Source of the DNA: Flagellimonas algicola
GTDB lineage: Bacteria > Bacteroidota > Bacteroidia > Flavobacteriales > Flavobacteriaceae
Assembly: GCF_005937185.1 (NCBI RefSeq)
Contig: NZ_VCNI01000002.1
Coordinates: forward strand, 1,178,001-1,242,000
DNA length: 64,000 nucleotides
Direction of reading: 5' to 3'
The notes under the pieces were generated by a model that was given only the letters and a program-made list of their open reading frames with translations, was not told where the DNA came from and did no database searches. Positions 54,162-60,363 of the stretch are shown here, piece after piece. Every line of letters begins with the position of its first letter. The stretch's first letter is position 1. The translations under genes and the position numbers were made by a program.

Positions 54162-55343
54162 ATGGGGAAACTACCAGCAAAATTGGAGTCAAAACTTGCG
54201 GAACGTTCGGCGAATCAATCTTTGAGAAGCCTTCCAGAGGAGGCGGACAGGGTTGATTTTTCCTCCAATGACTACTTGGGGTTGGCACGGGAAAGGGCGA
54301 TAGGTAAAAAGACGAAGGACCTACTCTTGTTAGATGGGGAATGGAGGCGTGGAGCTAGTGGTTCCAGATTACTCTCGGGGAATCATGCACTATACCCAAA
54401 GTTGGAATCTTTTCTGGCCAAGCACCATAATTCTGAGGCTGCTTTGGTTTTTAATTCGGGTTACGATGCGAACGTCGGTTTTTTTTCCTCGGTACCCCAA
54501 CGTGGGGACATGGTACTTTATGACGAACTGATTCATGCCAGTATCCGGGATGGAATCAAGATGGGGAATGCAAAGAGCTATAAGTTTGCTCACAATGACC
54601 TTGAGGATTTAAGAACCAAAGTGGAAAAGTCACTTCGAGCGCTGTGTCTGCCGACAGGCAGGCAGTCGAGAAGTAATGATTCCGAAATCTATATTGTTAC
54701 CGAGTCTGTTTTTTCAATGGACGGAGATTCTCCCGATCTCAAACCCATGGTTCAAATATGTCGCGACAAAGGCTGCCACTTAATTATTGATGAAGCCCAT
54801 GCAACCGGAATTTATGGTGATGGAAGGGATTTGGTTTGCAAAATGGGACTTAAGGACGAAATTTTTGCAAGAATCATCACCTTTGGCAAAGCCATGGGCG
54901 GCCATGGTGCCGCAATTTTGGGAAGCGAGGACTTAAAAACCTATCTTATTAATTTTGCCCGAAGTTTGATTTATACCACTGCCCTTTCACCGCATTCTGT
55001 TGCTGGGATTTTGGCATCATATCATTTTTTGGAGTCCAATGGAAAGGATCATATCATTGGTTTGCTGAACAATATTGAACATTTTAATGCCCAGATTAGG
55101 GAACTGGGTTTGGAGAAGAATTTTATCGAAAGCAATTCTGCGATACATTGTCTTATTGTCCCTGGGAACCAACAGGTGAAGTCCTTGGCCGGTCATTTAC
55201 AGCAGGCCGGCTATAATGTCAAACCCATTCTCTCACCAACGGTCAAGGGAGGAGAGGAACGATTGAGATTTTGTTTACATGCATTCAATACAAGGGAAGA
55301 AATAACCAGCATATTAAAAGAAGTTAAAAATTACCTTAACTAA
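54162..55343 (+). CDS. bioF: 8-amino-7-oxononanoate synthase
   Basis: A 393-residue PLP enzyme that joins pimeloyl-ACP (or CoA) and alanine in biotin synthesis. Signatures: VDFSSNDYLGLARE, ASGSRLLSGNHALYPKLE, LIIDEAHATGIYGDGR and the PLP lysine Lys243 in IITFGKAMGGHGAA. At residues about 157-171 (SLRALCLPTGRQSRS) the protein carries a stretch absent from usual family members; its DNA (54629-54675) is a dispersed palindromic repeat inserted in frame, in the loop before VTESVFSMDGD. The enzyme probably stays functional as the site is a surface loop. The DUF2007 gene overlaps its stop by one base. Confidence 0.95.
   Translation: MGKLPAKLESKLAERSANQSLRSLPEEADRVDFSSNDYLGLARERAIGKKTKDLLLLDGEWRRGASGSRLLSGNHALYPKLESFLAKHHNSEAALVFNSGYDANVGFFSSVPQRGDMVLYDELIHASIRDGIKMGNAKSYKFAHNDLEDLRTKVEKSLRALCLPTGRQSRSNDSEIYIVTESVFSMDGDSPDLKPMVQICRDKGCHLIIDEAHATGIYGDGRDLVCKMGLKDEIFARIITFGKAMGGHGAAILGSEDLKTYLINFARSLIYTTALSPHSVAGILASYHFLESNGKDHIIGLLNNIEHFNAQIRELGLEKNFIESNSAIHCLIVPGNQQVKSLAGHLQQAGYNVKPILSPTVKGGEERLRFCLHAFNTREEITSILKEVKNYLN
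54629..54675. repeat. Palindromic repeat inserted in frame in bioF
   Basis: Outer arms CACTTCGAGCGCTG (54631-54644) and CAGTCGAGAAGT (54663-54674) frame an inner stem TCTGCC/GGCAGG around GACA (54647-54662). The outer parts share GAGCGC...AGTCGA with the repeats at 50578 and 59801. The inner part encodes LPTGRQ, a peptide typical of dispersed repeats in this phylum. Confidence 0.7.
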
Positions 55344-55729
55344 TGGAACAAGAGTTTTTTACATTGGGAAGCTTTGAATTTCCGGCGGATGTCCAAATTA
55401 TCAAGGGGAAACTGGAGGCCGAAGGCATTCCGGTATTTTTGAGGGATGAGAATACCATAAATTCGGATCCTTTGATCAGTAGTGCTATAGGTGGTGTTAA
55501 ACTCCAAGTGCGCACATCAGATAAAGAAAGAGCTAAACAGATATTTGATGAGGTAAGAAACTACGCCACCGATATGGAAGGCAAACCTATTGTCTGTCCA
55601 AACTGCAAGGCGGAACGTTCAGAAATTTATTATTCGAGAAACAGTATTTTTTACAAACTTTTTCCCTTTTTTGAGCTTAAGAAATATAGATGTACCGCCT
55701 GCAACTTCATTACAAAACCTGAATCATGA
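55343..55729 (+). CDS. DUF2007 protein with C-terminal zinc ribbon
   Basis: A 128-residue protein. Residues 1-75 form a DUF2007 (GlnB-like putative signal-transducing) domain: FTLGSFEFPADVQIIKGKLE, AEGIPVFLRDENTINSDPL, GGVKLQVRTSDKERAKQIF. Residues 85-128 have two CxxC pairs (VCPNCKAERSE ... YRCTACNF) that make a zinc ribbon. It overlaps bioF by one base (TAATG) and bioD by four bases (ATGA), so all three are translationally coupled. A role in regulation of the biotin genes is possible but unproven. Confidence 0.85.
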   Translation: MEQEFFTLGSFEFPADVQIIKGKLEAEGIPVFLRDENTINSDPLISSAIGGVKLQVRTSDKERAKQIFDEVRNYATDMEGKPIVCPNCKAERSEIYYSRNSIFYKLFPFFELKKYRCTACNFITKPES

Positions 55730-56340
55730 GCTATTTTATTACCGGAACATCCACCGAAGTGGGCAAGACCATTGCTTCGGCCATTGTGGTGGAAGCCTTG
55801 GAGGCCGATTACTGGAAACCTGTACAGGCCGGGGATTTACATTATTCTGACAGCCATAAGGTTCAAGAATTGATTTCCAACCCTAAAAGCAAGATCCACC
55901 AGAACAGCTATGCGCTACAGACTCCCATGAGCCCTCATGCTGCGGCTGAAATTGATGGAATTCAGATAGAATTGGATAAAATAACGCCTCCTAAAACTCA
56001 AAACAGATTGGTGGTTGAAGGTGCAGGAGGATTGTTGGTTCCTCTAAATGATAGCGATACTATTTTTGATTTGATCCAACCCGAGGACAAGGTAATCGTG
56101 GTCTCCCGCCATTACTTGGGAAGCATTAATCATTCCCTTTTAACCATTGAAAAACTCCAGGAAAAGAATCTAAAGATTGGGGTCATATTCAGCGGAGACG
56201 AACATCCTACCACGGAAAGTATTATTCTAAAGAAAACTGGGGTTACTTTTCTGGGAAGAATCAATGAAGAACAGGAGTTTGATAAGGAAGTTGTAAAGAA
56301 ATATGCCGCCAATTTCAAGCAGGCGCTGGAATCATTTTAG
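55726..56340 (+). CDS. bioD: Dethiobiotin synthase
   Basis: A 204-residue ATP-dependent enzyme that closes the ureido ring of dethiobiotin. The P-loop TGTSTEVGKTIASAI, the DAPA-binding Lys in YWKPVQAGD, the middle MSPHAAAEIDG and the VVEGAGGLLVPLND motif are all present. Its start overlaps the DUF2007 stop by four bases. Its last nine bases overlap the convergent glycosyltransferase. Confidence 0.96.
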   Translation: MSYFITGTSTEVGKTIASAIVVEALEADYWKPVQAGDLHYSDSHKVQELISNPKSKIHQNSYALQTPMSPHAAAEIDGIQIELDKITPPKTQNRLVVEGAGGLLVPLNDSDTIFDLIQPEDKVIVVSRHYLGSINHSLLTIEKLQEKNLKIGVIFSGDEHPTTESIILKKTGVTFLGRINEEQEFDKEVVKKYAANFKQALESF

Positions 56341-57869: not shown

Positions 57870-59165
57870 TTGAAGCGTTTGACTAATCCCACAGCATTGG
57901 AAAAGTTATCGGATCGGGACAAAAAGCATCTTTGGCACCCCCTCACACAGCATAAGACCCATTCGGAAATGTTGGCCATTTCCAAGGCCAAAGGTGTGCT
58001 ACTTTTTGATGAGGAAGGAAAAGAATACATAGATGGTATTTCCTCTTGGTATACCTGTATGTATGGCCATTGTCACCCCTTTATTTTGGAAAGAGTGGGA
58101 AACCAGATGCAGCGGTTGGACCAAGTGGTTTTTAGTGGGTTTACGCATGAACCTGCGGTGAAACTTTCGGAAGAGCTTATCAAAATATTACCCGCCAACC
58201 AAGAAAAACTCTTTTTCTCGGACAATGGGTCCACAGCTACGGAAATTGGGATTAAAATGGCATTGCAATACCACTTTAACCAAGGTGAAAAACGCAATGT
58301 GCTCTTGGCCTTTGAGGAAGGTTTCCATGGTGATACTTTTGGGGCGATGTCGGTTTCGGGATTATCTGTATACAATGGTCCGTTTGAAGATTTCTTTATT
58401 GAAGTGGATCGTATTCCCGTTCCCACTCAAGACAATATCGAATCGGCTTTGGCCCAGTTGGAAATCAAATTGAAAAACAACAATATAGCGGGATTTATTT
58501 ATGAGCCTTTGGTTCAAGGAGCAGCGGCTATGAAAATCCACGATGCTGACGGACTTGACCGTATATTGGCACTTTTGAAGAACCACGGGGTGCTCACCGT
58601 TGCTGATGAGGTTATGACCGGATTTGGCAAGACCGGGAAGCATTTTGCATCAGACCATTTAGATACCAAACCGGATATCATGTGTTTGTCCAAGGCATTA
58701 ACGGCCGGTCTCGTTCCCATGGGTTTGACTACCTGTACCCAAGAAGTGTATCAGGCTTTTTATAGTGATGACATATCCAAAGGGCTTTTCCATGGCCACA
58801 CGTATACGGCAAACCCTTTGGCCTGCACTGCCGCTTTGGCTGCAGTTGAATTGTTACAAACCGAAGAAATTCAAGAAAATATTCAAAACATTATCCAATG
58901 GCATAAGGTATTTGATTCAGAGATTAAAGACCATCCCAAAGTCGCACAAACCAGGCAGCTCGGAGTAATTTATGCATTGGATTTGGATATTCAGATGGAG
59001 CGGTATGGGAATCTAAGGGACAAGCTGTTCAAGCATTTTATGGATGAAGGGGTTTTTCTCAGGCCTTTGGGAAATACCATTTATATTTTAGCTCCATATG
59101 TAACAACGGAGATTCAAATGAACAAGATTTACGATACGATAAAATCAGCTTTGGAAATTGTATAG
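57870..59165 (+). CDS. bioA: Adenosylmethionine--8-amino-7-oxononanoate transaminase
   Basis: A 431-residue PLP-dependent aminotransferase. Motifs: DKKHLWHPLTQHKTHSEML, EYIDGISSWYTCMYGHCHP, LFFSDNGSTATEIGIKMALQY, ADEVMTGFGKTG and the PLP lysine in IMCLSKALTAGLVPMG. The SAM-type substrate Tyr in SSWY is kept. There is no ATG in the right place; TTG at 57870 is the best start, with a CATCTTTG box (57849-57856) 13 nt upstream. It overlaps the longer frame of the ketosynthase by a few bases. Confidence 0.95.
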   Translation: MKRLTNPTALEKLSDRDKKHLWHPLTQHKTHSEMLAISKAKGVLLFDEEGKEYIDGISSWYTCMYGHCHPFILERVGNQMQRLDQVVFSGFTHEPAVKLSEELIKILPANQEKLFFSDNGSTATEIGIKMALQYHFNQGEKRNVLLAFEEGFHGDTFGAMSVSGLSVYNGPFEDFFIEVDRIPVPTQDNIESALAQLEIKLKNNNIAGFIYEPLVQGAAAMKIHDADGLDRILALLKNHGVLTVADEVMTGFGKTGKHFASDHLDTKPDIMCLSKALTAGLVPMGLTTCTQEVYQAFYSDDISKGLFHGHTYTANPLACTAALAAVELLQTEEIQENIQNIIQWHKVFDSEIKDHPKVAQTRQLGVIYALDLDIQMERYGNLRDKLFKHFMDEGVFLRPLGNTIYILAPYVTTEIQMNKIYDTIKSALEIV

Positions 59166-59175
59166 TCAATCAAAA

Positions 59176-60363
59176 ATGTTGGAACAACCCATTTCCATAA
59201 CCGCCTTATCTTCCATTTCTGCATTGGGGAGTTCCATGGTAGAAGTCTGGAATTCGTATCAAGAAGGGAACCATAAATTAACCCACACTTGTATTGGCGA
59301 CCAGAAAGTTTGGGCCTCTTACCTTCCAAAGCCTTTGAAAGCTGAGGTAACTGCCCTAAAGCAATCCGATTCTAAATATGAACAGCTGGACGACTCTGTA
59401 CTCTTTGCGCTGTTGGCGGCCAGAAGGGTCATTGAACAATCGGGATGGGATGCCATCGCTAACTTTGGGGTAAATATTGGATCTTCCAGAGGGGCTACCG
59501 GCTTGTTTGAAAAGTATCATGAAGATTTCTTGAAAGTTGGGAAATCCTCCACCTTGTCATCCCCCACCACTACCTTGGGAAATATTTCGTCCTGGGTGGC
59601 CCATGATTTAAAATCCAAAGGACCGGATATATCCCATTCCATAACCTGCTCAACGGCCTTGCATGCAGTTTTAAATGCTGTGGCTTGGCTACAGAGTGGA
59701 CTGACCGATAAATTCTTGGTAGGTGGTAGCGAGGCACCACTGACCCCTTTTACCATATCCCAAATGCAGGCTTTGAAAATATATTCGAAAATGTCACCTG
59801 GAGCGCAGTCGAGAGGAGCCGGAAAAATACAATACCCTTCTCGGGCAATGGATTTGGAGAAGAAACAAAACTCCATGGTATTGGGAGAAGGCGCTGCCAT
59901 GGCCTGTTTGGAAAAGGGAAAACAAGCAAATGCCTTGGGGTACATCATCGGTATAGGGTATGCCACAGAACTCTTACAACATAACGTTTCCATTTCTACA
60001 GATGCCCAGTGTTTTCAGGATTCCATGAAAATGGCCTTGGGTGAACTAGATCCATCTGAAGTGGATGCCGTTGTGATGCATGCTCCTGGTACCGTAAAGG
60101 GGGATTTATCAGAATTTAAGGCCATAGAAAAAGTTTTTTGTAACAAAACTCCATTTTTAACAACCAATAAATGGAAAGTAGGTCACACCTTTGGTGCTTC
60201 GGGACTTTTAAGTGTTGAAATGGCCCTGCTCATGTTACAGCACCAAACCTATATTACAACTCCTTTTTTTAACCAGGAACAGAGGTCGAAAACCATCAAA
60301 AATGTGATGGTCAATGCAGTAGGCTTTGGAGGGAACGCCGTGTCTATTTTACTTTCCAAATAA
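59176..60363 (+). CDS. FabF-like beta-ketoacyl synthase in the biotin locus
   Basis: The ATG at 59176 (MLEQPISITALSSISALGSS) gives 395 residues. The thiolase-fold active site is complete: nucleophile Cys in SITCSTALHAV, His in HAPGTVKGDL and His in KVGHTFGASGLL with the Lys before it. Motif spacing resembles FabF/KASII but the motif sequences differ (ITCSTAL for the usual ACSSS), so it is a paralogue and probably specialised. Residues about 207-216 (SPGAQSRGAG) are encoded by a repeat element. It lies 10 nt after bioA and is probably part of pimeloyl chain synthesis; no bioC or bioH is in the window. Confidence 0.88.
   Translation: MLEQPISITALSSISALGSSMVEVWNSYQEGNHKLTHTCIGDQKVWASYLPKPLKAEVTALKQSDSKYEQLDDSVLFALLAARRVIEQSGWDAIANFGVNIGSSRGATGLFEKYHEDFLKVGKSSTLSSPTTTLGNISSWVAHDLKSKGPDISHSITCSTALHAVLNAVAWLQSGLTDKFLVGGSEAPLTPFTISQMQALKIYSKMSPGAQSRGAGKIQYPSRAMDLEKKQNSMVLGEGAAMACLEKGKQANALGYIIGIGYATELLQHNVSISTDAQCFQDSMKMALGELDPSEVDAVVMHAPGTVKGDLSEFKAIEKVFCNKTPFLTTNKWKVGHTFGASGLLSVEMALLMLQHQTYITTPFFNQEQRSKTIKNVMVNAVGFGGNAVSILLSK
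59793..59820. repeat. Repeat inserted in frame in the biotin-linked ketosynthase
   Basis: The core GAGCGCAGTCGAGAGG (59801-59816) matches the core at 50583 over 12 bases and the outer arms of the bioF repeat. It adds about ten residues (SPGAQSRGAG) just before the conserved YPSRAMD segment, without a frameshift. Confidence 0.65.

Follow-up and report, generated by a model that had tools for sequence, protein, structure and literature searches.

A 47-nt palindromic segment lying in frame within bioF of Flagellimonas algicola (positions 54629..54675 on the forward strand of the window, i.e., the whole 64,000-nt stretch of DNA analyzed here) is a dispersed genomic repeat with one hairpin nested in another, and such repeats recur in the same bioF loop of relatives. 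We consider it likely that the segment is a compound REP (repetitive extragenic palindrome), namely, a CGTC/TGTC-type palindrome whose complementary arms flank GAGCGCAGTCGA and whose loop contains a second hairpin, and that REPs insert widely while selection spares in-frame copies in tolerant loops, so that few loops are reused. Different palindromes occupy the bioF loop in relatives, which suggests that this loop tolerates genomic repeats and serves as a parking place for them. Short palindromes of different families occupy, in frame, a small shared set of protein loops, one of them in a tRNA synthetase. This would provide a natural map of insertion tolerance and make two questions testable: by what means CGTC-type REPs move when no transposase is known for them, and whether the capture of repeats reflects tolerance alone or is a source of protein diversification.

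A compound palindrome in bioF and its genomic copies

The host gene (54162..55343, forward strand) encodes an 8-amino-7-oxononanoate synthase of 393 aa whose top NCBIfam match was TIGR00858 (E value of 1.1e-94 and 317 bits, under the model's curated cut-off of 426 bits), with bioD (55726-56340) and bioA (57870-59165) as neighbors according to NCBIfam; the closest named BioF relatives belonged to Muricauda, Flagellimonas, and Allomuricauda. The repeat encodes BioF residues 157-171 (SLRALCLPTGRQSRS) and reads GTC ACTTC GAGCGC (21 nt) AGTCGA GAAGT A. Its parts, all on the forward strand, are the tag AGTC (54628..54631), the outer arm ACTTC (54632..54636), the left half of the REP core, GAGCGC (54637..54642), a nested 21-nt segment (54643..54663) with the inner hairpin CTGCC-GACA-GGCAG at 54648-54661, the right half of the core, AGTCGA (54664..54669), and the outer arm GAAGT (54670..54674), both arms being delimited by the fold and by the copies in the same genome. 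The RNA fold of 54620-54690 had a z score of -3.7. A preliminary description had proposed a dispersed palindrome inserted in frame in bioF, which is borne out, as the DNA is found at exactly these positions and has many genomic copies. It had also described a single nested palindrome; the inner hairpin does lie within outer arms, but the element is better regarded as two nested units, since bioF of Flagellimonas pacifica (L039) has only the outer REP at this position (SLRVQSRS) and is shorter by 7 residues (21 nt).

Searches of the F. algicola genome revealed the exact inner 14-mer 5 times and the outer 14-mer, with at most one mismatch, 29 times, while the reversed inner and outer patterns had 0 matches there; within the window, the inner 18-mer with up to 3 mismatches matched once, compared with 0 matches in 100 shuffles. 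Copies of the outer REP (family 1) in this genome follow the plan tag-arm-GAGCGCAGTCGA-arm, and by reading, xGTC precedes the arm in 29 of the 31 copies (TGTC in 24 and CGTC in 1). Moreover, the 5-nt arms of these 31 copies pair at 4.52 of 5 positions versus 3.33 ± 0.14 when partners were shuffled (maximum of 3.81 in 2000 shuffles), so that the palindrome is preserved via compensating changes. The bioF compound shares 45 of 47 bases with a copy elsewhere in the same genome (L002) and 43 of 47 with another (L017), and given this near-identity, bioF most likely acquired the compound as a unit.

In an AlphaFold2 model of BioF built with 21 sequences (mean pLDDT of 82), residues 157-162 form the end of a helix (147-162), residues 163-175 are coil, and a strand (176-181) follows, with pLDDT under 50 at residues 166-170. 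The inserted stretch was aligned with gaps by phmmer to 1bs0, which we take to be Escherichia coli BioF. The insert would thus occupy a predicted surface loop.

Occupancy of the bioF loop across Flavobacteriaceae

The loop was compared in 166 bioF loci (161 distinct genes once identical ones were collapsed), drawn from named genomes (21 loci), from 60 genomes of the genus, 40 of which (own genome included) had a match above 260 bits, and from 199 genomes of the family, 106 of which (own included) had a match at an E value of ≤1e-60. A match above 260 bits, the range of bioF itself, in 40 of 60 genus genomes makes the earlier characterization of the host as an essential-pathway enzyme a weak one. 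REP families and cut-offs were set after the loops had been viewed, and control windows of the same size from the same bioF genes were scored with the same definitions. The family-1 pattern (core GAGCGNAG(T)CGA plus arms) was present at a score of ≥14 in 30 of 161 loops, a score that 1 of 4990 control windows also reached; lowering the cut-off to 13 gave 36 loops versus 4 controls, and to 12, 46 loops versus 52 controls. The family-2 pattern (GTCATTCTGAACTTGTTTCAGAATCTC) reached at least 19 of 27 positions in 11 of the 161 loops but in none of 3259 controls, and a third type, CTGAGCTTGTCGAAG, matched at 18-19 of 23 positions in two genes (L172 and L121), with 0 of 2967 controls reaching ≥17. 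When loops with a family-1 score of ≥13 or a family-2 score of ≥19 are counted along with the window copy, 48 of 161 loops have REP-like palindromes and 113 lack a REP at these cut-offs; Fisher tests on these loop data take no account of relatedness.

The CGTC/TGTC tag was present in many of the bioF loops. Forward family-1 copies occur in two frames (ERSR and RAQSR), while reverse-strand copies were observed for family 1 in L052 and for family 2 in L108, L116, L120, L134, and L143. The suggestion that the insert is confined to this strain therefore holds for one part only: the window gene is the sole carrier of the inner 21 nt among the 161 distinct bioF genes (the runner-up matched 11 of 14 positions of the inner 14-mer), while the outer REP recurs in Flavobacteriaceae. 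A common origin with the sequence in Muricauda myxillae (L055) is at most tentative for the nested part, the similarity score being attained by 33 of 1000 shuffles. Two further genes were unusual in other respects. In the BioF of Pricia antarctica (L051 3001-4338), a very long insert brings this loop to 234 nt (modal loop length, 123 nt) and a second insert lies further on, and bioF of Maribacter halichondriae (L054 3001-4160) has 10 stops in one frame, indicating either a frameshifted gene or a sequence error.

REPs outside bioF and the inner palindrome

To what extent REPs enter other genes was judged from the non-bioF family-1 sites of three relatives (G103, G093, and G057), 66 of 67 of which were read (the missing one is 1 of 41 in G057); the count leaves out 9 sites of G184, from which only unpaired ones had been taken. 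Just 14 of the 66 sites lay within identifiable genes, 13 being assigned by NCBIfam on cut-out ORFs, most of them under curated cut-offs, and one (L251) by metG alignment, while L249, without a family match, is outside the 14. The genes were metG (in all three relatives), rnr, an RlmB/TrmH-type methyltransferase gene, aceF, metH, mfd, argS, argD, the gene for the methylmalonyl-CoA mutase small subunit, purL, and trpF (two sites). Such genomes are mostly coding, about 90%, and genes therefore appear to be strongly avoided by REPs. This pattern resembles a purifying filter rather than an element tuned to be tolerated, as had been proposed; such tuning of the open reading frames was rejected because the 5 open frames, of 6, in the REP consensus are a level that 32% of shuffles attain.

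REPs also lie in other protein-coding genes. A metG search of the family, with a query that itself bears a REP, gave matches in 95 of 100 genomes, and among the best 30 loci scanned, a REP was found at the same place in 5 at a score of ≥13 (0 of 387 control windows) and in 10 at a score of 12 (3 of 387 controls); most forward metG copies read SAVE, which is the third frame. An inverted REP pair lies in frame in trpF of both F. algicola (L034 1169-1900) and one relative (G057; L281 235-1005). In the window, a fabF-like ORF (beta-ketoacyl-ACP synthase-like; 59158..60363, forward strand) adjoining bioA hosts another in-frame REP, of the family to which the outer REP of bioF belongs (59792..59817, forward strand; peptide KMSPGAQSRGAGK). 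Few loops may tolerate REPs, so that the same ones (in bioF, metG, and trpF) would be reused.

Genomic copy numbers were compared in 65 genomes, which were picked by bioF status rather than at random and did not include all those with a REP in bioF; one genome without a bioF match (G100) was removed before the tests, leaving 64. Family-2 copies had a median of 33 in the 11 genomes with family 2 in bioF, 10 in the 23 with family 1, and 5 in the 30 others, a class that includes eroded-REP loops (P = 1e-4). For family 1, the values were 31 where bioF has family 1 versus 4 and 4 (P = 5e-4), and outside the genus, family-1 copy number did not differ with the presence of family 1 in bioF (P = 0.22). 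As for the mover, Y1_Tnp (PF01797) had 0 matches in the F. algicola genome at an E value of ≤0.001, a search in which 5 of 14 control genomes were positive, and was found in 10 of 60 genomes of the genus. A RAYT was accordingly rejected as the mover in this genome.

The exact inner 14-mer occurs at 35 sites in 17 of the 60 genus genomes (own included), and 32 of the 35 were read, with contexts sorted by eye. Five of the 32 were in loops of family-1-type REPs, all in F. algicola; three were in loops of family-2-type REPs (L208, L211, and L216), two in GATTCCCG/CGGGAATGAC hairpins (L209 and L232), eight in broken tRNA copies with an intact tRNA close by (L206, L218, L219, L225, and L228-L231), and 14 in other contexts. 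The flanks of the inner palindrome had a mean duplex energy of -5.99 versus -4.79 ± 0.39 for shuffled partners (lowest of 300 shuffles, -6.37), so that hairpin-loop targeting is only modest. Conceivably, mobility has two tiers, in which the 20-nt palindrome CCTGTCTGCCGACAGGCAGG would be a minimal mobile unit preferring hairpin loops (in REPs of several families and in the arms of broken tRNA copies) and might ride in a REP, as a compound, into coding loops, where successive REP families would compete for tolerant sites; we regard this scheme as rather doubtful. In addition, five loci (L218, L219, L225, L228, and L231, at ~1120-1960) have, by eye, a small GIY-YIG nuclease-like frame between the palindrome-bearing broken tRNA copy and an intact tRNA-Leu or tRNA-Arg. 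In three others (L224, L226, and L227, near 1500), the 20-nt palindrome is at seemingly the same place, with TTCTTTAA^CTTAA flanks and similar downstream sequence.

Explanations and comparison with known systems

In the mechanism that we favor, non-autonomous CGTC/TGTC-type REPs would insert or be copied widely by a putative machinery, selection would purge gene-disrupting copies, and those lying in frame in flexible loops would persist until they erode or are replaced, with no function of the insert being required. Copying of the compound REP as one unit into the BioF loop that joins helix 147-162 to strand 176-181 probably took place recently. Evidence for this mechanism comprises the excess of REPs over control windows in the bioF loop and at the metG site, the unlike elements of sister lineages, the near-identity to the L002 copy, the covarying arms, the high family-2 copy number of genomes with family 2 in bioF, the 14 of 66 sites within genes, and the predicted position of the insert at a helix end and in coil. 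Counting against it, the Y1_Tnp searches gave no mobilizing enzyme for this genome, family-1 copy number outside the genus does not follow the presence of family 1 in bioF, REP families and cut-offs were set with the loops in view, REP states cluster on the BioF tree, and with one genome per species no insertion event is seen directly. On this tree, a quick one with the loop left out (LG+G4, with SH-aLRT support only), the REP state requires at least 36 changes versus a mean of 45.6 for shuffled labels (minimum of 39 in 200 shuffles), suggesting that inheritance accounts for part of the pattern, beside turnover. Such clustering, together with weaker, eroded-looking copies at the same place, would also be expected if a single REP had inserted long ago in an ancestral bioF and been inherited by all, the differences being due to mutation or gene conversion. 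That history is unlikely given that the copies belong to two families, are found on both strands, read in two frames on the forward strand, and have offsets of 60, 66, 67, 70, and 73, differences that are beyond the reach of substitution, and that well-supported sister lineages are unlike in family, strand, or frame (L168/L052, SH-aLRT of 99; L132/L099, 94; L076 versus L074+L095, 99). Under any tree, the five family-strand-frame combinations observed would imply at least five placements.

Slightly less probable still is that the hairpin or the peptide has been retained for a function, either in mRNA attenuation or stability or as an adaptive BioF loop. The stable RNA fold of the window copy accords with this, as does the frame usage, because forward family-1 copies in bioF (score of ≥13) are in frames 0 and 1 and never in the third, the one mostly used in metG. 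Yet the encoded peptides are wholly unlike (ERSR, RAQSRS, RHSELVSES, and EMLKRVQHD), the majority of loops score below the cut-offs for a REP, and stable hairpins are not enriched at the loop; when 36-nt windows were folded in the 161 bioF genes, 7 of 161 had their most stable window in the loop, which makes up 4.9% of windows, and a family-wide selection for a hairpin there was rejected. Copies near the threshold are ambiguous, considering that 52 of 4990 controls reach a score of 12, but a chance resemblance, an assembly error, or a native loop in place of a repeat is highly improbable in view of the genomic copies, the covarying arms, and the same pattern in named genomes, isolates included (L035-L055).

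In the available text of Di Nocera et al. 2013 (PMC3733652), CGTC-tagged REPs are described as short palindromes that bear a CGTC/TGTC tag, frequently form dimers, and in some cases lie in coding regions, and for which a dedicated transposase is not known; two Xanthomonas species have REPs at roughly corresponding positions in recB, and RPE-4 and RPE-6 are equated with CGTC REPs. The family-1 copies of F. algicola are similar in being mostly TGTC-tagged, though the bioF copy reads AGTC. Their anatomy differs from the stem of 8-9 bp (first two pairs A-T) and loop of 4-5 nt given in that text (PMC3733652), as family 1 has 5-nt paired arms and a GAGCGCAGTCGA core with G-A, with A at the first and C/G at the second stem position, whereas family 2, CGTC ATTCTGAA CTTGT TTCAGAAT, matches that stem and loop plan by reading. 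The REPs described there are mainly head-to-head dimers, and here 16 of 34 listed sites form eight inverted pairs with tags outward and starts spaced 31-55 nt apart. Inverted pairing of short palindromes is also a feature of RAYT-linked REPs and REPINs as portrayed in the accessible part of PMC6006769, from which this genome differs in having no Y1 transposase match.

Rickettsia palindromic elements (RPEs), according to the consulted portion of a review (PMC10969869), lie in frame in unrelated genes and are thought to be compatible with protein structure, which the present repeats share. The long type, of about 150 bp with a conserved peptide, is unlike the repeats described here, which belong to another phylum, span about 25-50 nt (47 nt in bioF), and encode peptides varying with frame and family. 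No paper on the bioF loop or its repeat in Flavobacteriaceae was found by title and abstract in the open-access literature searched. Relative to the CGTC-tagged REPs as presented in the available text of PMC3733652, one subfamily here has a second hairpin in its loop, and more than one REP family uses the same protein loop across a bacterial family. In-frame REPs and RPEs are thus already known, and what is new is that one loop is reused by several REP families.
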